Shown: positions 6,950-33,422 of the stretch, piece after piece
Layout: every line of letters starts with the position of its first letter
Numbering within the stretch: position 1 is the first letter of the stretch
IMG/VR virus record: IMGVR_UViG_3300047481_001126
Location: 1-37,406 of that record
Length of the DNA stretch: 37,406 nt
Strand: one strand, 5' to 3'
DNA from: a virus
Translations under genes and position numbers: made by a program
Notes under the pieces: generated by a model
What the model was told of the DNA's origin: nothing
Seen by the model: the letters and a program-made list of their open reading frames with translations, nothing else
The model's database searches: none

Positions 6950-8059
6950 ATGCCTAAAATAGTTACAGAATCCGAATTAAAAGATAGAATATTTGAGATA
7001 TATCAAGAAGAATTCCATAAAATTCTTAATGAAAAATGGAATAAATTATCTAACAAAGACAAAAGAATTGTTGTTGAAATGTTAAAAGTGGTTTATCCCG
7101 AAAAAAAACCACTTCTTAAAGAAGATAAATGGTATAATACTGTTGGTGATATTGTTGGTATTTTTGACCCGACAGGGATTGTTGATTTGGTTAATGGTAT
7201 AAGTTATTGGAGACAAGGTGATAAACTTTTTGCTATATTATCATGGGTTTCAGTATTACCATTCTTAGGAGACGCTATCGCCAAACCTGTTATTGGTGTT
7301 TTAAAAGTTGGAGGTTCCGCAACCAAAGCGTTTAGAGCGGCGGTTGTTGCTAAAGATGCTGCTAAAATAGCGTCTACCGCTAAAAAGGCTGGTGGACCAA
7401 TTGCAAAAATGGTTGAAAAGGCTCCGACATGGGGAACAAAATTAGTTGAATTGTTACGAAACTCAGTTGGTAGAGTACCAGGTCTTGGTAAAGGGTTGGT
7501 TAATGCCGTTGAAGAATATGTTCAAATATTTTCAAAAGCGAGTCGTAGTGGTGCAACACTTAAAGCTGAAAAGGCTTTAGGCGCTGCAGAAAAAGAAGAA
7601 TTATTAAAACAAATCGCCAAACAAGAAGGTAAAGTTTTTAGTGGTTATAAAGACATGAAAAATTCTTGGTGGAAGTATATGAAATCAGATGCTAAATTAG
7701 GCCAAAAACTATATGCTGGAGTCCCAAGAATATTCGGTGGAAATCCAGCAACTAGGTCATTAATGAGAAGAACCAAAACCTATTTAGGATTTTTAGATTG
7801 GTTAGGTGTTGCTAATTTTGTGGGACCTGAAGAGTTGGAACAAACTATTCCTAACGCGGAACAAAGATGGGAAGAGTATTCTCAAACACCACAAGCACAA
7901 CAAACATGGAGTTCTGAGATGGGATTGGGTCAAGCACCGCCACCACCTCCACTACCATCTCAAACATCATCAACACCAGCATCTTCACTTGGAAAAGGTG
8001 GTGATATACTATCAACAATAATCGGTGGATTACTTGGCGGACCCGCAAAACTTGTATAA
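6950..8059 (+). CDS. Tagged late protein with hydrophobic Gly/Ala core
   Basis: This 369-residue protein starts MPKIVTESELKDRI, matching the shared N-terminal tag (VTE|S). Residues about 60-120 hold a long hydrophobic stretch with the pattern GDIVGIFDPTGIVDL, NGISYWRQGDKLF and LPFLGDAI, recalling the helical pre-toxin or membrane-active segments of large secreted proteins. After an Ala/Lys-rich helical region comes a Pro/Gln/Ser-rich tail (about residues 325-350, with APPPPPLPSQ) and a Gly-rich end. Its stop overlaps the next tagged gene (TAATG). A structural or ejected internal protein is a reasonable guess; no enzyme motif is visible. Confidence 0.75.
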   Translation: MPKIVTESELKDRIFEIYQEEFHKILNEKWNKLSNKDKRIVVEMLKVVYPEKKPLLKEDKWYNTVGDIVGIFDPTGIVDLVNGISYWRQGDKLFAILSWVSVLPFLGDAIAKPVIGVLKVGGSATKAFRAAVVAKDAAKIASTAKKAGGPIAKMVEKAPTWGTKLVELLRNSVGRVPGLGKGLVNAVEEYVQIFSKASRSGATLKAEKALGAAEKEELLKQIAKQEGKVFSGYKDMKNSWWKYMKSDAKLGQKLYAGVPRIFGGNPATRSLMRRTKTYLGFLDWLGVANFVGPEELEQTIPNAEQRWEEYSQTPQAQQTWSSEMGLGQAPPPPPLPSQTSSTPASSLGKGGDILSTIIGGLLGGPAKLV

Positions 8060-10378: not shown

Positions 10379-10816
10379 ATGAAGTCATCAGTCAACATAG
10401 TTAATAAAAAAGTTAGTCACGAATATTTCTTCGTAGATACTTTTGTTGTTGGTATAAAACTGATGGGTTCTGAAGTTAAATCAATACGTGATGGTAAAGT
10501 TTCACTTGTGGACGCTTATTGTTATTTTAATCAAGGTGAATTGTTTATTCGGGGTATGAATATACCTGAATATAAACAATCATACACTCACGAACCATTG
10601 AGAGAACGCAAACTTCTTCTTAAGAAAAAAGAACTTGTAAAGTTACAAAAAGAACTTATTAAGGGGTTAACTTTGGTTCCTTATAAAATTTTTACAAATG
10701 ATAGAGGTTTGTTAAAGGTTGAAATAGTTTTAGGTAAAGGTAAAAAGTTATACGACAAGAGAGAAAGTATAAAAGAAAAAGACATTAATAGGGATTTAAT
10801 GAGGCAAATTAAATAA
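10379..10816 (+). CDS. smpB: SmpB, tmRNA-binding protein
   Basis: The 145-residue protein aligns along nearly the whole family: NKKVSHEYF, GIKLMGSEVKSIRDGK, a central HEPLRERKLLLKKKEL, GLTLVPYK and the signature GKGKKLYDKRESIKEKD. SmpB binds tmRNA and brings it to stalled ribosomes. ATG 10379 is preferred over an in-frame ATG 72 nt upstream because that codon lies before the terminator stem. The C-terminal tail after the DKR motif (EKDINRDLMRQIK) is of roughly normal length. No tmRNA is seen in the window, so it would use host tmRNA or one elsewhere in the phage. Confidence 0.95.
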   Translation: MKSSVNIVNKKVSHEYFFVDTFVVGIKLMGSEVKSIRDGKVSLVDAYCYFNQGELFIRGMNIPEYKQSYTHEPLRERKLLLKKKELVKLQKELIKGLTLVPYKIFTNDRGLLKVEIVLGKGKKLYDKRESIKEKDINRDLMRQIK

Positions 10817-12900: not shown

Positions 12901-13824
12901 ATGAGTAAAATTATTGTAACTGGCGGTTTGGGGTTTATAGGTTCACACTTTATTAATTATGTGAATGAAAACCAAGATGATGAAATTATATTGATTGATA
13001 AAATCACATACGCCGCAAATCCTAATAATATTAGAAAAAGTGTAAAATTTTTACAAAAAGATATTTGTGATGTAACATCAGAAGAACTTGGTGAATATGA
13101 TTATATTGTTAATTTTGCGGCTGAATCTCACGTGGATAACTCAATTAGTAACGGATTACCATTTGTAAGAACAAATGTTGAAGGCACTTTTAATTTAATT
13201 GAAGTTGCTAGAAAAAATAAAAACCTAAAAAAATTTATTCAGATATCTACGGATGAAGTTTATGGTGACATGGATGATTATCCTGGATATAAAATTGCTA
13301 ATGAAGAATCACCCTTAATTGGTAGTTCATATTATTCGGCAACTAAATTGTCTTCAGATATGTTAGTGATGGCTGCGGGTAGAACATACAAGTTACCGTA
13401 CTTAATTACTAGAACTTGTAATAACTACGGTGAAAACCAACATAAAGAAAAATTTGTACCAAAAATTATCAATTCAATTAAAAACGGAATCGAGGTTCCT
13501 GTTTATGGTGACGGAAATCAAATTAGAGAATGGATTCATGCCGATGATAATGCTAAGGCAATTTATAAATTACTTAAATCTGATTACGTAAATAAAATTT
13601 TTAATATTGGAACTGGTGAGCGATATACCAATAACGAAATAGTGTCAATGATTAGTGAGTCTTTAGGTAAAGATGTTAAATTTAAGTATGTTGAAGATAG
13701 GTTAGGTCATGATAGGAGATATAGCCTAGATAGTGGTAAGTACATGAATATTTTTGGTGATATTCAGAATATAACATTCAAAGAATGGATAAAAGAAACG
13801 ATAAATAAAATTAAAAATAAATAA
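12901..13824 (+). CDS. rmlB: dTDP-glucose 4,6-dehydratase-like (RmlB)
   Basis: An extended short-chain dehydrogenase: NAD-binding GGLGFIGS at residues 8-15, NFAAESHVDNSI, ISTDEVYGD with the family's Asp-Glu pair, and the catalytic YSATK (Tyr145, Lys149). REWIHADDNAKAI and FNIGTGERYTNNEIV are also typical of RmlB. The enzyme makes dTDP-4-keto-6-deoxyglucose, the first committed step to rhamnose and related sugars. At 307 residues it is somewhat shorter than the usual ~340. With RmlC downstream it could modify host or virion surface sugar; RmlA and RmlD are not in the window. The start codon touches a terminator T-tract. Confidence 0.9.
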   Translation: MSKIIVTGGLGFIGSHFINYVNENQDDEIILIDKITYAANPNNIRKSVKFLQKDICDVTSEELGEYDYIVNFAAESHVDNSISNGLPFVRTNVEGTFNLIEVARKNKNLKKFIQISTDEVYGDMDDYPGYKIANEESPLIGSSYYSATKLSSDMLVMAAGRTYKLPYLITRTCNNYGENQHKEKFVPKIINSIKNGIEVPVYGDGNQIREWIHADDNAKAIYKLLKSDYVNKIFNIGTGERYTNNEIVSMISESLGKDVKFKYVEDRLGHDRRYSLDSGKYMNIFGDIQNITFKEWIKETINKIKNK

Positions 13825-14049: not shown

Positions 14050-14556
14050 ATGGAACAGGGTTTTAAAATAAAAAATAACGTATTTGTTGACCACAGAGGT
14101 ACCTTTGCACCTCTATCTTTATATTCTTTAGATAAAGATTGGATTCAAAGTAATGTTAGTTTTAACCCTAAAAAAGGTACTTTTAGAGGGTTGCACTTTC
14201 AATTAGGTGATTTTGCTCAGGCAAAACTTATTAAGGTAATTACAGGAATGATTATTGACTTTATTGTTGATATTAGAATTGATTCACCACATTATTTAAA
14301 AGTTTATGAATTTATTGTAACCCCTGGCGAAGAATTATATGTCCCTAGAGGATATGCTCATGGGTTTTTAACTACCGAGGATAACACGGTTGTTCAATAT
14401 TTGGTGGACAATATTTATAGTCCCGAAAACGAAGGTTCTATTTATTGGAAAGAATTCCCTGAAATAGTTGACACAATAAAAGAATACCAAGATGGTGTTT
14501 TAAATGAGGGTGAACTTATCATATCTGAAAAAGATTTAGTTACAAAAAATTTTTAA
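14050..14556 (+). CDS. rmlC: dTDP-4-dehydrorhamnose 3,5-epimerase-like (RmlC)
   Basis: A 168-residue cupin with RmlC signatures: FVDHRGTF, FNPKKGTFRGLHFQ (likely catalytic His49), LIKVITG, FIVDIR, YVPRGYAHGF and a late YSPENEGSIYWKE. The family epimerises carbons 3 and 5 of dTDP-4-keto-6-deoxyglucose. Length is close to the usual ~180. Together with RmlB it gives dTDP-4-keto-L-rhamnose; the final reductase would have to come from the host or another phage gene. A related sugar epimerase activity cannot be excluded. Confidence 0.88.
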   Translation: MEQGFKIKNNVFVDHRGTFAPLSLYSLDKDWIQSNVSFNPKKGTFRGLHFQLGDFAQAKLIKVITGMIIDFIVDIRIDSPHYLKVYEFIVTPGEELYVPRGYAHGFLTTEDNTVVQYLVDNIYSPENEGSIYWKEFPEIVDTIKEYQDGVLNEGELIISEKDLVTKNF

Positions 14557-16381: not shown

Positions 16382-17122
16382 ATGACAACCACCAACACCA
16401 CCACCAAAGTTCGTAACTACCAAGGCACTAACCCTTTCATTCTCAAAATGAAGGACGTGATTAACAAATGGGGTCGATTGACCGACAAACAAGCCGAGGC
16501 TGTAGAGAAAGCTTTGAGTGGTGGTGTGAAGCAGGTGAATGTTGATGAACTTCCTGAGGATATGAAACGTATTGCCAAATACGAAGGTGAGAACACTTTT
16601 GTTAATGACCTTAAAGGTAAGTTGATGACTTATGGTACTTTGACCTACAAACAAATTGAAGCTGCTAACAAACAGATTCAGGGCGAGGAAGACAAGAAGA
16701 ATACCCGTAAGTTGAATATCCCAACTGTTGGTGAAACCGTTAAAGTAGGTCGTTCTATTGGTCAGAAGATGAAAGAAACTTACGGTCTTCAATTCAACCC
16801 AATTCTCTTGGACATTACCAAAGTATTGGCAGTATCACCAAAGGCGGTTAAGTTCTCAGGAAAGATGACTGTAAAACGTGGTGATGTGTGTGTATGTTGT
16901 GCTAAAACTCTTACCGATGAGTTCTCTATGTTGACTAAAATGGGTAAGACTTGTGCTAAACACATGGGTGTTGAATACATCACCGACTCAAGTCAAGCAG
17001 AACGTTTCCGTAACGAATACTTGGCAAAAGTTGAAGAAATTGGAGAGATGCAATTTTGGGTTCCTAAATCTCGAATCATCAAATGGGATGGTAAGACCGA
17101 AGTCATCTTAAAGATGATTTAA
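16382..17122 (+). CDS. Zinc-motif protein with 30-residue repeats (246 aa)
   Basis: The start is ATG 16382, not an upstream TTG. Two related segments (NPFILKMKDVINKWGRLTDK, about residues 18-45, and NTFVNDLKGKLMTYGTLTYK, about 70-97) form an internal repeat of a kind seen in phage proteins that share F-x-L-K...GxLTxKQ. Near residues 170-200 is a zinc-binding pattern, CVCC...GKTCAKHMG (CxxC then CxxxH). Codons are richer in C and G than in neighbouring genes (acc, aac, cgt), which suggests strong expression or a different origin. With its host-type promoter it is likely an early nucleic-acid-binding protein; function not known. Confidence 0.75.
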   Translation: MTTTNTTTKVRNYQGTNPFILKMKDVINKWGRLTDKQAEAVEKALSGGVKQVNVDELPEDMKRIAKYEGENTFVNDLKGKLMTYGTLTYKQIEAANKQIQGEEDKKNTRKLNIPTVGETVKVGRSIGQKMKETYGLQFNPILLDITKVLAVSPKAVKFSGKMTVKRGDVCVCCAKTLTDEFSMLTKMGKTCAKHMGVEYITDSSQAERFRNEYLAKVEEIGEMQFWVPKSRIIKWDGKTEVILKMI

Positions 17123-17126
17123 TTAG

Positions 17127-17155
17127 AAAAGGGAGTTTGACTCCCTTTTTAATTT
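17127..17155 (+). terminator. Terminator after zinc-motif protein
   Basis: Stem AAAAGGGAG / CTCCCTTTTT with a 5-nt loop and a T-rich tail, directly after the stop at 17122. Confidence 0.8.
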
Positions 17156-20692: not shown

Positions 20693-23600
20693 ATGAGAAA
20701 TTTAAGTTTGTTTTTATTTTTATTTTTCACAAAATTATTGTGGTCACAACCAAGTCAATGTCCGAATGCCGATTTCTCAATGAACGGGTTTCAGAACTGG
20801 ATTGGAGGAATTGGAAATTGTTGCCCAATTGTAATTACGAACCCCAATACAATACAAAATGGTCGTCATACTATTATGACACCTGGTTTAGACCCTATTG
20901 TACCCGCTTTAACAAGAACTCCTCCAGGAATACCTCAATCAGCTCGGTTAGGAAACAGTCAGGTGGGTGCGCAGGCTGAAAGTTTAACATACTCTTTTAC
21001 AGTATCTAATCAAAATGCTTTATTCGTTTATCGTTATGCTGTGGTATTAGAAGACCCTGGACACCCACCAATTGCTCAACCCCGTTTTGAAATGCAGGTT
21101 AGAAATCAGAATGGAGGAATTATTCCTTGTACCTTTTATCAAGTGGCGGCGGGTAATAATGTACCTGGATTCATAAACTATCAAAACGTGAGATGGAGAG
21201 ATTGGACTACTACTGGTGTTAATCTACTTAACTATGTTGGTCAGGTAGTTACTATTGAAGCTCGTACTGGAGATTGTGATTACTCAGGTCATTTCGGATA
21301 CGCGTATTTGGCTGCAGAGTGCCGTCCTCTTCAAATTGATATTACATATTGCGTAGGTGATACTGTAGCAACCCTTGTTGCTCCTCCAGGTTTTGTTGGA
21401 TACCAATGGTCCAATGGAGCAACTACTCAACAAATATCTATTATCAATCCGACATGGGGTCAAAATGTATATCAGGTTACCCTAACTTCTGCTACTGGTT
21501 GTACAGCTCAATTGTCTGCAAACATCAATCCTGTACTTCCTACAGCCCATTTTAACTGGCAAAGTTTATGTAATGGTCAAATACAATTTACGGACTCCAC
21601 CATTATCCCAGGAGTTCAACCCGCAGTTTGGAATTGGTCATTTGGTGATGGAGGTCAGTCATCATTTCCTAATCCAATTCATACCTATCAAAATCCAGGA
21701 CCATACAATGTAACTTTAATTTCATCAGCTCAAGTTGGTTGTGAAGATACAGTGACTCTACCTATTGTTGTGCCTCCTATTCCAAATGCTGATTTTGCTG
21801 TAGATACTTTATGTGGTTTGGCTAAAGCATTCTCAGACCAATCTACAATAGCCAATCCTGGAGGAATTGCTTCTTGGTTTTGGGATTTCGGTGATGGAAC
21901 TACAGACACCAATCAAAACACAATTCATACATACAACACCCCAGGTAATTTCAATGTCACTCTTATTGTTCAAGACAGTGTAGGATGTAGCGATACAATA
22001 ACTAAACCAATAGTCGTAAACGCAATACCAGTTGCTAGTTTTGCAACTCAAAATGTTTGTGCTGGCCAGAATATGCCTTTTCAAAACACCTCTAATATAT
22101 TTGGTGGTGGATTAATGCAACACGCTTGGAGTTTTGGTAACGGAGCTACTTCAGTACAAACCTCTCCTTGGTATCAATATCCAAACCCAGGTACTTACAC
22201 TGTTACTTTGATTGTTACGGGACCTGGTGGTTGTAAAGATACTACAGTTCAACAAGTTACCGTTAATCCTTTACCAGTAGCGGCCTTTACATTACCAAAT
22301 ACATGCGGACTGAGTGATACGATTACCAATACATCAACTGTTATTCCTCCTGCACAAATCACTTCCTATCAGTGGAATTTTGGGAATGGACAGACCTCAA
22401 ATCAGCAGAATCCGATTTACAATTATGCTAACCCAGGTGTATATAATGTAACATTAACAGTTACATCAACTGGTGGCTGTACTGATTCAGAAGTTCAGCC
22501 TATAACTATTAATGCAATACCAGTAGCCTCCTTTACAGCTCCACAAACTTGTCATGGTAATGCTGTACCTTTTACGAATACCTCAAATGTTTTAGGTAAT
22601 GCCAACTTGAACTATCAATGGACATTTGGAAATGGAAATACATCAAACCAAACCAATCCAACTCAAATGTACGCTAATCCTGGTCAATACCTAGCCACCT
22701 TAATAGTTATAGGTCCTGGATTATGCTCTGATACAGCTACGCAAATTGTTAATGTTCCTCCTACTCCAATAGCTAATTTTACTATTCCAGATTCTTGCGG
22801 ATTATCAGGTCAAATATCAAGTACATCCATAATCGCTCCTCCTGGATTTATTACTTCATATCAGTGGAATTTTGGTAACGGTCAAACATCTAATCAACCA
22901 AATACTAATTATTCCTACAATGCTCCTGGTATTTATAATGTAGCTCTAATTGTTAATTCTAACCAAGGATGCTCTGATACGATTACTCAACCAGTAACAA
23001 TCTGGTCTATCCCAACTGCTCAATTTACACATACTCCAACTTGCTATGGTATTCCATTTACATTCACCGACCAATCTACAATTACAAACTCTCAAATTAT
23101 AGGATGGAATTGGTCATTAGGTAATGGTCAAACCTCGAACCAACAGAACCCAACTCATTTCTATAACACAAATGGTCAATACCCAGTTACCTTAATTGTC
23201 ACTGGCCAAGGCGGTTGTACTGATACTATTTCAGATTTGATAACAGTATATCCTAAACCTACTGCTGCTTTTGTATTACCTGATTCGTGTGGTATGATTG
23301 CTCCATTTACCGATTTAAGTTTATTTAACATAGCTTTATGGTCTTGGGATTTCGGAGATGGAAACACTTCCAATCAAACTAGTCCTACTCATACCTATCA
23401 AACAAATGGAATTTATCAAGTTCAGTTAATTGTACAAAATACAGATGGATGTTTAGATACTTTAGTTCAAGAATATAGAAACTATCAAATACCAGTTGCA
23501 GGTATTACTCCAAACAATAACTGTTTAACCTATCCAACCTTACTATCAGACAACTCAATTGGCCAAATTGCATCTTGGAATTGGTCAACAAATAATACTT

Positions 23601-24736
23601 TACAAAATAGTCAAAACTTTAATTATACATTTAATTCTCCTGGAGTATATCCTGTACAGTTAATTGTTCAATCAGTAGATGGTTGCATTGATACAGCTTA
23701 TAGTCAATTTGAAATTTATCCACTACCATTTGTTAGTTTTATATCACCAAATGAATGTGCGGGTGACTCGGTAACATTCACAAACTTATCTAGTGGTGCT
23801 GCTGTATATCAATGGTATTTGAACGGTAATTTATTTTCAACATCAACCAACCCAAAACAAGTTTATCCATGGGGTCAATACCAAATACAACTAATTGGTA
23901 CCAATCAATATGGTTGTCAAGATAGTTTACTACAAACTCTAGAAGTTTATCCTAGACCTATACCTAATTTTGGTGGTCAATTTGAAGGTTGTGTTCCATT
24001 ACAAGTATTTTTAGATAATCAAACTACAATAGCCTCTGGAGGAATTGTAAATTCTTATATATGGGATATAGGATTGAATACTTACTACACAGAGGACATA
24101 AATTTAACATATACTACAGTAGGTAATTATTCTGTTACTTTAACTGCTATATCAGATAAAGGATGTGACTCAACAATTACATTTACTGATGTAATTAAAA
24201 CCTACCCATTACCAGTGGCTGAGTTTGCCTACTCACCTGAAAATCCTAACACGGCAAATACTAAAATAGAATTTACTAACTTATCACAAGGTAATTTATA
24301 TAATACATGGGAAATAATGTTTCAAACGTTTACCGAAACTCATCTATCATATACATTCCCCGCTGACACAGGTCGTTATTTAATATATTTACATGTTGAA
24401 AATGAATATGGGTGTACCGACTCAATATACCATCCTTTGTTTATAAACTCTAATTTTACATTTTTTAAACCAAATTCATTTACCCCGACCAAAGACGGTT
24501 TAAATGATACATTTAAAATTCATGGAACAGGTATTGTAGAAGCGGAAATGTTAATATTTAACCGTTGGGGGGAATTACTAGCATCATATAAGAATCTAGA
24601 ACCTATGACTAAAGGTTGGGATGGTAAATATAATGGTGTTTATGTTAAACAAGATGTGTATGTGTATTTAATTAAAGTTAGGGACTTTACTGGTGAGTGG
24701 CACATAATAAAAGGTCATATTAATTTAATTAAATAA
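20693..24736 (+). CDS. Secreted PKD-repeat protein with T9SS type B sorting domain (1347 aa)
   Basis: An N-terminal Sec signal peptide (LSLFLFLFFTKLLWSQ) is followed by a ~200-residue beta-rich domain and about twelve PKD-like repeats of ~80-88 residues. Eight have the PKD hallmark WxFG[D/N]G (such as WFWDFGDG, YQWNFGNG) with NVTLIV and GC(x)DT, and about four near the C-terminus are degenerate. The last ~90 residues, with PNSFTPTKDGLNDTF, IFNRWGELL and KGWDGKYNG, are the gliding-motility-type (CHU_C/TIGR04131) signal for the type IX secretion system. Such proteins are surface adhesins of Bacteroidetes. In a phage it could alter the infected host's surface or act as an adhesin. Codon and base use in the repeat region looks less AT-rich than the neighbours, suggesting host origin. 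Confidence 0.9.
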   Translation: MRNLSLFLFLFFTKLLWSQPSQCPNADFSMNGFQNWIGGIGNCCPIVITNPNTIQNGRHTIMTPGLDPIVPALTRTPPGIPQSARLGNSQVGAQAESLTYSFTVSNQNALFVYRYAVVLEDPGHPPIAQPRFEMQVRNQNGGIIPCTFYQVAAGNNVPGFINYQNVRWRDWTTTGVNLLNYVGQVVTIEARTGDCDYSGHFGYAYLAAECRPLQIDITYCVGDTVATLVAPPGFVGYQWSNGATTQQISIINPTWGQNVYQVTLTSATGCTAQLSANINPVLPTAHFNWQSLCNGQIQFTDSTIIPGVQPAVWNWSFGDGGQSSFPNPIHTYQNPGPYNVTLISSAQVGCEDTVTLPIVVPPIPNADFAVDTLCGLAKAFSDQSTIANPGGIASWFWDFGDGTTDTNQNTIHTYNTPGNFNVTLIVQDSVGCSDTITKPIVVNAIPVASFATQNVCAGQNMPFQNTSNIFGGGLMQHAWSFGNGATSVQTSPWYQYPNPGTYTVTLIVTGPGGCKDTTVQQVTVNPLPVAAFTLPNTCGLSDTITNTSTVIPPAQITSYQWNFGNGQTSNQQNPIYNYANPGVYNVTLTVTSTGGCTDSEVQPITINAIPVASFTAPQTCHGNAVPFTNTSNVLGNANLNYQWTFGNGNTSNQTNPTQMYANPGQYLATLIVIGPGLCSDTATQIVNVPPTPIANFTIPDSCGLSGQISSTSIIAPPGFITSYQWNFGNGQTSNQPNTNYSYNAPGIYNVALIVNSNQGCSDTITQPVTIWSIPTAQFTHTPTCYGIPFTFTDQSTITNSQIIGWNWSLGNGQTSNQQNPTHFYNTNGQYPVTLIVTGQGGCTDTISDLITVYPKPTAAFVLPDSCGMIAPFTDLSLFNIALWSWDFGDGNTSNQTSPTHTYQTNGIYQVQLIVQNTDGCLDTLVQEYRNYQIPVAGITPNNNCLTYPTLLSDNSIGQIASWNWSTNNTLQNSQNFNYTFNSPGVYPVQLIVQSVDGCIDTAYSQFEIYPLPFVSFISPNECAGDSVTFTNLSSGAAVYQWYLNGNLFSTSTNPKQVYPWGQYQIQLIGTNQYGCQDSLLQTLEVYPRPIPNFGGQFEGCVPLQVFLDNQTTIASGGIVNSYIWDIGLNTYYTEDINLTYTTVGNYSVTLTAISDKGCDSTITFTDVIKTYPLPVAEFAYSPENPNTANTKIEFTNLSQGNLYNTWEIMFQTFTETHLSYTFPADTGRYLIYLHVENEYGCTDSIYHPLFINSNFTFFKPNSFTPTKDGLNDTFKIHGTGIVEAEMLIFNRWGELLASYKNLEPMTKGWDGKYNGVYVKQDVYVYLIKVRDFTGEWHIIKGHINLIK
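21600..23400 (+). repeat. Tandem PKD-coding repeats
   Basis: Units of about 240-265 bp repeat within the PKD gene. Near-identical DNA such as tatcagtggaattttgg occurs at about 22367 and 22859, so some copies arose by recent duplication. Repeat-driven copy-number change is likely. Confidence 0.75.
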
Positions 24737-28137: not shown

Positions 28138-30363
28138 ATGAGAACTTTGGTTTTCTTTTTTTTGTTGCTTAGCAACTTTTCGTTTTCTCAGTATTGCCCT
28201 TTTTTAGGTCCTGACCAATATCTTCCTTGCGGAGTTAATACAACAACACTTACGGCTGATTTAAGCCAATGTACCCAAGGTACTAATCCTAATCAGACAA
28301 ACACTTATTCTGTATCTCAGATACAATATGTTAACCAAACTAATAATGGTACTCAATTGTTTATGAGTGACGACTCTCAACAAGGGCCATTTAATATTGG
28401 GTTTAACTTTTGTTTTTTTGGGCAAACATACACACAATTTTGGGTTGGTAGTAATGGATGGGTTTCTTTTTCCGCAGGACAACCAACTACATTCACCTCA
28501 ACACCCATACCTTCAGTTGCTGGTAGTGTACCAAAAAACTGTATTATGGGTCCATGGCAAGATTGGCATCCTGGTGTTGGAGGTCAAATAAGATATCAAG
28601 TTCAGGGGACTCAACCGTGCAGAAAGTTGATTGTTAGTTGGATTAATGTACCTATGTTTCAATGTACAAATGTTCAAGGTACATTTCACATAGTGATTCA
28701 TGAGTCAACCAACTATGTTGAAAATTATATACAAATTAAACCAAACTGTTTAACTTGGGCGGGTGGAACCGCAGTACAAGGAATACATAATCAGGCGGGT
28801 ACTGTCGCCTTTACAACACCAGGTAGAAACTCTACAGCTTGGACAGCACTTAACGATGCCTATAGATGGACCCCTTCAGGTACACCTGTATTACCAACAC
28901 TAACTTGGTATCAGGTTGGAAACCCAATACCACTAGGTACTGGACCAACATTAACTGTTACACCACCATCACAAGGTGCGTACTATACTTGTCAATTTGT
29001 TTACCCAACCTGTAATGCAGGATGGAATAGTTGTAATCAACAAGTTGGTTTTGGACCTGACACTGTATTTGTTTTACCTGGCCCACCAAACCTAACTGCA
29101 CCCGCAGTTTTAATAACAGAACCAACGTGTAATAATTTTTGTGATGGTCAAGTATTAGTAACACCTAGTAGTGGTATTGGACCTTTTACTATTACTTGGA
29201 CGGGTGGTTTAAACGGGTTTAACCCAACTGGATTATGTCCTGGAACTTACAACTATATATTAACAGACAACAATGGGTGTGATTATACATCTTTTGTTGT
29301 TTTATTAAATCCTCCACCTGTAGTCATTGATACCATTTTTGGTAATGATACATTATGTGTTAATTCAATAACAAACCAGTTCTCGGTTGTTAACGGTAAT
29401 CCAAATTTAAATTATGTTTGGTCTTCAAATGCGGGACAAATAACTAATGGTCAAGGAACCAATCAAATAAATTTAGACATAACAGGTTTAAGTGGTGGGT
29501 ATTATCCAAATATCATATCTGTTTACGGACAGGATTCAAGTGGATGTAATAGTCAAGTTGAGACGTTTAGTGTTTATGTTTTAGACATACCAATAACTAT
29601 AACACCAATAGGGCCTTTTTGTGTGTACGACAACTGTGTTCAATTAAATGCAACACCCTTTGGCGGACAATTTTGGAGTAACAATGTTGTCAATAATCAA
29701 TATTGTCCAAATTTAAATTTATATGGTCTTGACACTGTTTATTATACCTATAGTCAAAATGGTTGTGTGTTCATGTCAAATACATCAGTAGTTGTTTATC
29801 CTATACCCACAATTCAACCAATAACTAATGGTGTTATTGGTGATAACAGTCAATATCATATGTTATGTTTAGGGGAACAAGACATAGATACTTTTGCGGT
29901 GTTATCCAGTAATTTGATAGGTGACAATGTGTGGTATTATATGAATGATATTATACAAACTGAAGTTTTAGAAATTACTTGGAGTAGTGAAGGAACGTAT
30001 CAATTCTATGTTATACGAGAAGAAAATGGTTGTTTTTCATCACCAACATATTTTAATGTTTCGGTAGAATATTGTCCAGAAGATTTAATTTTTATCCCTA
30101 ATTCTTTTACCCCTGATGGTAATCAACTAAATAATATTTGGAAACCAGAATATAACTCAGCGTTTAATTATAATTTTAAACTTGAAGTTTTTAACAGATG
30201 GGGTGAACTAATATGGGTTTCCAAAAGTACTGACGATGGTTGGGATGGTAGACATAATAATAAACTAGTACCGATTGGTGTTTACGTTTGGAAATTAAGT
30301 TATGGTAACTTTGACGGTTATTACAAATATGAAATGATTGGTCACGTAAATGTGTTAAGATGA
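28138..30363 (+). CDS. Secreted protein with SprB-like repeat and T9SS sorting domain (741 aa)
   Basis: It has a Sec signal peptide (LVFFFLLLSNFSFSQ), then a ~230-residue beta domain (FNIGFNFCFFGQ, VGSNGWVSFS, YVENYIQIKP) typical of Bacteroidetes surface proteins. Around residues 325-400 is a SprB-like repeat: PTCNNFCDGQVLVTPSSG, FTITWTGG, CPGTYNYILTDNNGC. Ig/PKD-like domains follow. The last ~90 residues (FIPNSFTPDGNQLNNIW, FNRWGELIW, DGWDGRHNN) are the T9SS type B (TIGR04131) domain. SprB is the gliding adhesin of flavobacteria. This is the second such protein in 10 kb, which argues against chance. Codons look closer to the phage average than in the PKD gene. Confidence 0.88.
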   Translation: MRTLVFFFLLLSNFSFSQYCPFLGPDQYLPCGVNTTTLTADLSQCTQGTNPNQTNTYSVSQIQYVNQTNNGTQLFMSDDSQQGPFNIGFNFCFFGQTYTQFWVGSNGWVSFSAGQPTTFTSTPIPSVAGSVPKNCIMGPWQDWHPGVGGQIRYQVQGTQPCRKLIVSWINVPMFQCTNVQGTFHIVIHESTNYVENYIQIKPNCLTWAGGTAVQGIHNQAGTVAFTTPGRNSTAWTALNDAYRWTPSGTPVLPTLTWYQVGNPIPLGTGPTLTVTPPSQGAYYTCQFVYPTCNAGWNSCNQQVGFGPDTVFVLPGPPNLTAPAVLITEPTCNNFCDGQVLVTPSSGIGPFTITWTGGLNGFNPTGLCPGTYNYILTDNNGCDYTSFVVLLNPPPVVIDTIFGNDTLCVNSITNQFSVVNGNPNLNYVWSSNAGQITNGQGTNQINLDITGLSGGYYPNIISVYGQDSSGCNSQVETFSVYVLDIPITITPIGPFCVYDNCVQLNATPFGGQFWSNNVVNNQYCPNLNLYGLDTVYYTYSQNGCVFMSNTSVVVYPIPTIQPITNGVIGDNSQYHMLCLGEQDIDTFAVLSSNLIGDNVWYYMNDIIQTEVLEITWSSEGTYQFYVIREENGCFSSPTYFNVSVEYCPEDLIFIPNSFTPDGNQLNNIWKPEYNSAFNYNFKLEVFNRWGELIWVSKSTDDGWDGRHNNKLVPIGVYVWKLSYGNFDGYYKYEMIGHVNVLR

Positions 30364-32678: not shown

Positions 32679-33422
32679 ATGTTTAACTTTTTTGAAGTTG
32701 GTGGTTGCGTCAGAGACGAAATTCTTGGTTTAAAGTCCAAGGACATTGACTATGTTGCCGTCCCTAATGAAAATCTTTTAGACAAATATAAAGATGCTTA
32801 CGAAATGTTTGTTATCTTGGAAACGTATCTTAGTTCTGAAAAGTTTGAAATTTTCTTGTCAACACCTGAGTGTTTTACAATCAGAGCTAAGTTCCCAAAG
32901 GGACACAAATACCAAGGTGTTGCTGACTTCGTAATGGCTCGTAAGGAGATTGGATATGTTGAGGGCACAAGACAACCCATTATCGTCCCTGGTACTCTAT
33001 ACGATGATTTAATTCGTAGGGATTTCACTTTGAACGCTCTCGCTAAAGATGAAGATGGTAATATTATTGACTACTTTGACGGTATGTGGGCATTAGAGGC
33101 AAGAATGTTAATAACACCTTTGGATTCTCGTATAACCATGTTAGATGACCCACTTAGACTTTTGAGAGCTTTTAGGTTTTCAATTACAAAAGAGTTTGTT
33201 ATTTCACCAAGAGTTTGGGAAACCTGTTTAATGGATAGTGTTGTTAACAAACTTGAAGAGGTTGTCTCACAAGAAAGAATTCGTGAAGAAGTCTTTAAAA
33301 TGATGAAACACGATACAATTAAATCTTTAGACTTATTTTATGACATAAACCGCATAAATCCAAAACTTATTCAGATTATGTTTGGTAGAGGAATGTGGTT
33401 AAAACCAACAATGGAACTATGA
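32679..33422 (+). CDS. CCA-adding-enzyme-like tRNA nucleotidyltransferase
   Basis: Class II nucleotidyltransferase / poly(A) polymerase head domain: VGGCVRDEILG at residues 7-17, the metal-binding DID (22-24), RRDFTLNALA (about residue 112) and DPLRLLRAFRF (about 155). These are the family's diagnostic motifs. At 247 residues it is much shorter than the usual ~400, lacking most of the body and tail that hold tRNA. It could therefore act on a different or smaller RNA, or repair CCA ends with reduced selectivity. The next gene starts within its stop (ATGA). Confidence 0.88.
   Translation: MFNFFEVGGCVRDEILGLKSKDIDYVAVPNENLLDKYKDAYEMFVILETYLSSEKFEIFLSTPECFTIRAKFPKGHKYQGVADFVMARKEIGYVEGTRQPIIVPGTLYDDLIRRDFTLNALAKDEDGNIIDYFDGMWALEARMLITPLDSRITMLDDPLRLLRAFRFSITKEFVISPRVWETCLMDSVVNKLEEVVSQERIREEVFKMMKHDTIKSLDLFYDINRINPKLIQIMFGRGMWLKPTMEL

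Follow-up and report, generated by a model that had tools for sequence, protein, structure and literature searches.

Phage-encoded candidate type B substrates of the Bacteroidota type IX secretion system, and a split form with C-terminal tags

Introduction

Phage proteins that carry a sorting domain of the type IX secretion system (T9SS) were described in 2020 in Nat Commun for Cryophage, in which type A domains are found on a highly variable cargo of an endoglucanase, GH39 and a PA14 protein (PMC7468147). Like the proteins that we report here, these are thought to hijack host secretion, and superinfection exclusion was suggested as their role. Phage-encoded T9SS cargo as such is therefore not new. 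On the bacterial side, the type B substrates of F. johnsoniae need PorP/SprF-like shuttles, with three orphan substrates sharing one of these (PMC12618676), and PorP-like proteins seem also to anchor type B proteins (PMC9143113). The phage proteins have in common with SprB/SprF and the PorP-anchored proteins a Sec signal and a TIGR04131-type C-terminal domain (CTD), and one of them has an SprB-like repeat. With GhpA, the grappling-hook protein of Aureispira (PDB 9flp, 9flw, 9fly), they share a chain of Ig-like domains, as seen in a fold search, and a match to the CTD profile, but GhpA is a bacterial protein of 5898 aa, whereas the phage proteins are 741–1347 aa long.

We describe here two genes, P0001 and P0002, in a window of 37,406 nucleotides (the whole stretch analysed, positions 1 to 37,406 of IMG/VR record IMGVR_UViG_3300047481_001126). 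Their products differ from the Cryophage cargo in that they are of type B and PKD/Ig adhesin-like; one family among them is conserved and occurs at a tail-gene locus, and there is a split form whose proteins bear C-terminal tags. We found no report of a phage type B cargo or of a conserved family of this kind, and none of the split form, the tag or the location in a tail operon, although this is weak evidence because most subscription papers and bioRxiv preprints lay outside the search.

Results

Two candidate type B cargo proteins

P0001 is built like a T9SS type B substrate, with the following parts.

20693..24736, plus strand: P0001, a 1347-aa T9SS type B cargo with signal peptide, jelly-roll N-domain, PKD array and CTD
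20693..20749, plus strand: predicted Sec signal peptide of P0001, MRNLSLFLFLFFTKLLWSQ, with a hydrophobic helix at 2-16 in the model
20759..21550, plus strand: N-terminal jelly-roll and first Ig-like domain of P0001, a conserved phage family (42 IMG/VR loci in the N-domain search; model pLDDT 87.8)
21551..24442, plus strand: PKD array of P0001, 10 Pfam PKD_4 stretches
24449..24736, plus strand: T9SS type B C-terminal domain of P0001 (TIGR04131, CHU_C)

The Sec signal and the gliding-motility-type sorting domain that the initial annotation had recognized are both borne out. The N-terminus is predicted to be a typical Bacteroidota Sec signal (the signal peptides of P0001, P0002 and their relatives were called from sequence, by eye and hydrophobicity), and TIGR04131 matches at 24470-24730 with 60.9 bits in the genome search, where the cut-off is 35, and with 56.1 bits in NCBIfam; there were zero matches to this model in 14 control genomes. 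Pfam places the CHU_C type IX signal at 1260-1332 of P0001 (4.6e-13), and in both P0001 and P0002 the type B CTD (TIGR04131/CHU_C) extends to the last residues. A PKD array is present as annotated, but the count of about twelve repeats becomes ten by Pfam, plus further degenerate ones (PKD_4, 10 stretches, E 2.3e-141; PKD, 9 stretches, 7.8e-81). The fold of the N-domain model (pLDDT 88) resembles MAM-Ig and CBM61/CBM modules at modest TM-scores, so sugar or protein binding is plausible, the resemblance leaving unspecified which. The proposed adhesin-like role is thus plausible to the extent that a predicted jelly-roll resembling MAM/CBM domains can make it so. PHROGs holds no family for P0001 or P0002.

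The second type B cargo of the window, P0002, was absent from the initial annotation.

28138..30363, plus strand: P0002, the 741-aa second T9SS type B cargo, of a conserved phage family
28138..28191, plus strand: Sec signal peptide of P0002, predicted from sequence, with a start conserved among the 44 homologues listed
29341..29826, plus strand: module of P0002 homologous to the free-standing split 'subunit 2' (residues 402-563; split-ORF HMM E 2.8e-41)
29812..29832, plus strand: junction segment IQPITNG of P0002, aligned with the split subunit 2 C-terminal tag SPIQHN (strand 559-563 in the model)
29833..30363, plus strand: module of P0002 homologous to the free-standing 'subunit 3' carrier, Ig and type B CTD (residues 566-741; split-ORF HMM E 1e-45; TIGR04131 at 30094-30345)

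Its domains are a predicted signal peptide, an SprB repeat, PKD_6 and CHU_C, and TIGR04131 scores 50.1 bits (genome search, cut-off 35). Searching IMG/VR with P0002 gave 141 loci, and the best 80 of the 141, excluding the window's own twin at 100%, are 44-59% identical and nearly all full length. A tree built on the P0002 N-domain gathers the 37 phage rows into a single clade (SH-aLRT 96), which lies beside one made up of Bacteroidota MAG genes; this suggests that the family was captured once and then retained for a long time in phages. The AlphaFold model of P0002 (pLDDT 79, pTM 0.38) is good for the domains and not for their mutual arrangement, and the nearest solved structures in a fold search with it are pieces of GhpA. 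Within the window, P0002 has no adjacent tail genes.

Phage origin of the DNA

Another metagenome yielded a second contig, IMGVR_UViG_3300042197_001803, of 95,857 bp. It was compared with window 10693-34733 and has 99.988% identity to it across 24,041 bases; it includes P0001 with the same junctions, and extends from there to baseplate wedge (phrog_261, phrog_43), primase, SbcC/SbcD-like, RuvC-like and sigma-factor genes. The T4-type structural genes of the P0001/P0002 contig are thus the baseplate wedge genes of this twin. No gp23 match was found on the twin-contig fragment, though the wedge genes are present there, and the gp23-type major capsid is matched above the cut-off in 26 of the 33 related records searched. 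In a diverged contig (L129) the gene order is kept on both sides of the P0001 site, but the space between the AAA gene and the c42 gene is taken by another ORF, of 146 aa; P0001 is therefore accessory at that site, whereas P0002 is conserved in place. Elsewhere, a protein 95% identical to part of the P0001 N-domain lies directly downstream of a split cassette (L368), and a DNA match of 86% to the 3' half of the P0001 gene ends just past the gene (L004). A chimera joining host DNA at P0001, or a piece of host chromosome, is rejected as far as sequence allows, both because the twin continues into phage structural and replication genes and because of the synteny in L129, and on these grounds the window DNA is phage, as is P0001, in agreement with the initial annotation.

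Distribution in other phages

The initial annotation had proposed a search for TIGR04131 and PKD proteins in other large Bacteroidota phages, and relatives are found in large and huge phages alike. Searching IMG/VR with the CTD alignment gave 266 loci. Thirty contigs of at least 100 kb, picked for having hits, carry 1-3 TIGR04131 matches each, typically in an ORF of ~750 aa or ~190 aa, and the huge phage genomes LR756502 (642 kb) and LR745206 (635 kb) have three and four respectively, one match in these genomes falling in a P0002 orthologue. BFVD contains 187-aa 'gliding motility-associated C-terminal domain' proteins and 185-aa 'PKD-like' proteins of uncultured Caudovirales, which match subunits 3 and 2 of the split form in size and type. 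What might have seemed an isolated curiosity is better described as a widespread phage strategy, in which many T4-like and huge Bacteroidota phages encode T9SS cargo, from a single protein to a few, frequently placed among tail genes.

We also note that two proteins of the huge phages, of 116 aa (L032:1486-1836, minus strand, LR756502) and 126 aa (L033:1363-1743, plus strand, LR745206), consist of little beyond a signal peptide and a type B CTD; it is possible that they are decoys of the T9SS or of its shuttle.

The tail locus and the split cassette

The tail tube gene lies directly upstream in 30 of the 68 distinct fused P0002-type proteins, with c3 and/or the baseplate hub next in 29 of these 30. 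In 13 other contigs this place is taken instead by a split trio, sitting three genes after that same tail tube gene and followed in most by c3/hub, each ORF with its own predicted signal peptide. Subunit 1 (mostly ~197 aa) is a variable adhesin-like protein. The other two are ~187 aa each: subunit 2 is an adaptor of two Ig-like domains, and subunit 3, which has Ig and CTD, is a small carrier with the sorting domain. A CTD ORF directly follows split subunit 2 in 69/69 cases, subunit 2 ORFs at a contig edge being left out. The fused P0002 and the split trio are locus equivalents, occupying the same slot and with the subunit 2 and 3 HMMs matching P0002, and by the Rosetta-stone argument this equivalence suggests, from sequence comparison, that the split proteins assemble into one complex.

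Stop-codon read-through joining subunits 2 and 3 is unlikely, since each ORF has its own signal peptide and the spacing between them varies. Subunit 2 as a separate ORF was not found in 396 Bacteroidota genomes (up to 8 candidates scored per genome), where its profile occurs only inside ORFs of at least 646 aa, and we have therefore rejected the split cassette as a bacterial invention.

A C-terminal tag on proteins that have no CTD

Split subunits 1 and 2 have no CTD, and the C-terminal end of each is mostly IxHN. An HN or HD ending is present on 68 of 171 signal-peptide proteins in cassette loci, a count that leaves out CTD proteins and subunit 2, as against 2/1425 proteins without a signal peptide, and on 1/97 in loci without the cassette; these, like the other tag statistics, describe related sequences and not independent events. 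The last two residues are common to subunits 1 and 2 in 62/70 pairs (permutation mean 51.5, maximum 58), and because most tags are the same HN this pairing test leans on nine non-HN pairs. The non-HN endings mostly depart in both partners, as in TN/TN, HD/HD, HF/HF, HF/HY and DN/QN. Tagged subunit 1 proteins fall into six BLAST clusters, the largest joining several lengths, and the matching is also seen in the c49 family, whose members finish with YTN or FTN where the genome's subunit 2 is of the TN/TD type, and with QHN in L085, where subunit 2 ends in SHN. In the P0001 N-domain family all 32 complete members have one or the other device, with a CTD of their own in 5, a tag without a CTD in 27 and neither in 0.

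The junction of the fused family reads like ..SITPYN.., and in two members ..ITPHN.., at the position where split subunit 2 ends in SPIQHN. In the AlphaFold model of P0002 the junction 559-563 is a short strand, the model not showing which sheet it joins. We infer that the tag is a strand that docks on the Ig domain of the next protein. An isopeptide (SpyTag-like) linkage through a terminal Asn or Asp is not supported, since tags ending in HF, HY and KQ exist.

The shuttle

No PorP (TIGR03519) match was found in the 12 phage records searched; the four Bacteroidota genomes that served as a positive control have 10-23 copies apiece. This is unlike F. johnsoniae, in which shuttle and cargo genes are often linked. 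The phages seem to have no shuttle of their own and so would use the PorP/SprF-like shuttle of the host; as type B CTDs are shuttle-specific, export by any given host is not assured.

Discussion

The model that best accounts for these observations is that P0001 and P0002 are phage-encoded substrates of the host T9SS, and we assign to it a rough probability of 0.6 as a whole, including display at the cell surface and the tag-docked complex of the split phages. The analysis shows the gene anatomy, the phage origin, the conservation of the family, the equivalence of fused and split forms at the locus, the tag statistics and the lack of PorP in the records searched, whereas the export, docking, surface location and purpose of these proteins are what we infer from the sequences. 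P0001 and P0002 would be made during infection, pass to the periplasm by way of Sec, and cross the outer membrane by virtue of their type B CTDs, using the T9SS of the host together with a host PorP/SprF-like shuttle. P0001 would then stand at the surface as a stalk of PKD domains with a jelly-roll tip that is probably sugar-binding, and P0002 would form a shorter protein at the surface, produced late if the frequent tail-operon place of its relatives is a guide. In the split phages the variable tip and the Ig adaptor would ride out on the CTD of the small carrier through docking of their tags.

This last step could amount to a possible new T9SS export route, in which secreted proteins without a CTD carry a genome-matched C-terminal tag (IxHN and its relatives) and dock chain-wise on the Ig domains of an adaptor and a small CTD carrier, and a single carrier can export, as a complex, tips that are interchangeable. 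We hold this tentatively, at slightly less than even odds. If true, the tag would act as an export signal of another kind than the type A and type B CTDs, and if it works as proposed the T9SS can move partners that lack a CTD and complexes without covalent links, a point that matters for the way in which the translocon deals with assemblies; tag and carrier together would then be a two-part handle ready for testing.

As to purpose, our best guess is surface masking against superinfection or re-adsorption. The likeliest benefit, although we would not put it higher than a reasonable conjecture, is a coating of the infected cell or its debris that prevents adsorption there by other phages or by progeny of the phage itself. 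Llp of phage T5, a small lipoprotein that blocks FhuA, is likewise a phage protein that is sited at the outer membrane of the host and excludes phages, and the analogy is one of purpose only. Superinfection and adsorption control in Bacteroidota become testable questions in this light. The same export route could also serve adhesins that stick the infected cell to particles or to other hosts, so that progeny are freed near new victims, receptor masking being then incidental or not taking place. Such an adhesin might have the form of a PKD stalk that ends in a jelly-roll/MAM/CBM-like tip, or of variable tips on a constant adaptor and carrier, and the GhpA pieces nearest to P0002 in structure come from a protein whose C-terminus also matches the phage CTD profile. 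However, no ligand is known, and the frequent tail-operon place suits the time of release better than a gathering before lysis, and we consider this use somewhat unlikely.

The tail genes themselves invite a reading in which the proteins, either exported or released by lysis, bind finished tails as an extra receptor-binding sheath, and it is in keeping with this that in 30 of 68 cases the P0002-type gene immediately follows the tail tube gene, and that phage tails commonly carry Ig-like domains. Against this, a signal peptide stands at the start among the homologues listed, the CTD is specific for outer-membrane export, and the virions of T4-like phages are assembled in the cytoplasm; we think it improbable. 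For P0001, building into the virion, which the initial annotation had offered as an alternative to display on the infected cell, is not supported, since its signal peptide directs it away from the site of assembly. We give very little credence to the view that these are host genes captured by assembly or accident and with no phage role. PKD/CTD proteins are abundant in Bacteroidota, the P0002 N-domain has bacterial relatives and P0001 is missing from the syntenic site in L129, but a second assembly has the same junctions, and there are a phage-only clade, recurring loci, tail-operon synteny and a split form that was not found in the bacteria searched. For P0002 this reading is largely refuted by the conserved family.

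Several other genes of the window and its twin deserve mention beside the proposed T9SS substrates. On the twin contig, the baseplate genes are followed by large ORFs (76602-82309), one of them SprB-repeat-like and with no evident signal peptide; these ORFs are perhaps tail fibres drawn from the same domain stock as host gliding adhesins. Within the window, genes related to translation include a protein at 10379-10816 that reads like SmpB (matching phrog_6791, function unknown) and a tRNA nucleotidyltransferase at 32679-33422 (phrog_24229), and a tRNA-Leu(taa) predicted with ARAGORN at 17077-17155 overlaps the 3' end of the ORF at 16382-17122. The glutamine synthetase-like protein at 4427-5668 matches over part of the catalytic domain only. 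An epimerase/dehydratase at 12901-13824 is followed by a gene at 14050-14556 that reads like RmlC, and we presume that the two are dTDP-sugar genes. Finally, the N-termini of ORFs at 6950, 8059, 12521, 14849, 15371, 24756, 30750 (minus strand) and 35997 bear a short motif such as KIILTEN, KLIKES or FLITES, which to our eye recalls the sequences that target T4 internal proteins to the capsid, and the proteins that have it may be packaged or injected. A strict pattern for this motif matches 10 of the 105 ORFs of the window and twin contig, where shuffled sequences give a mean of 2.2 and a maximum of 7.
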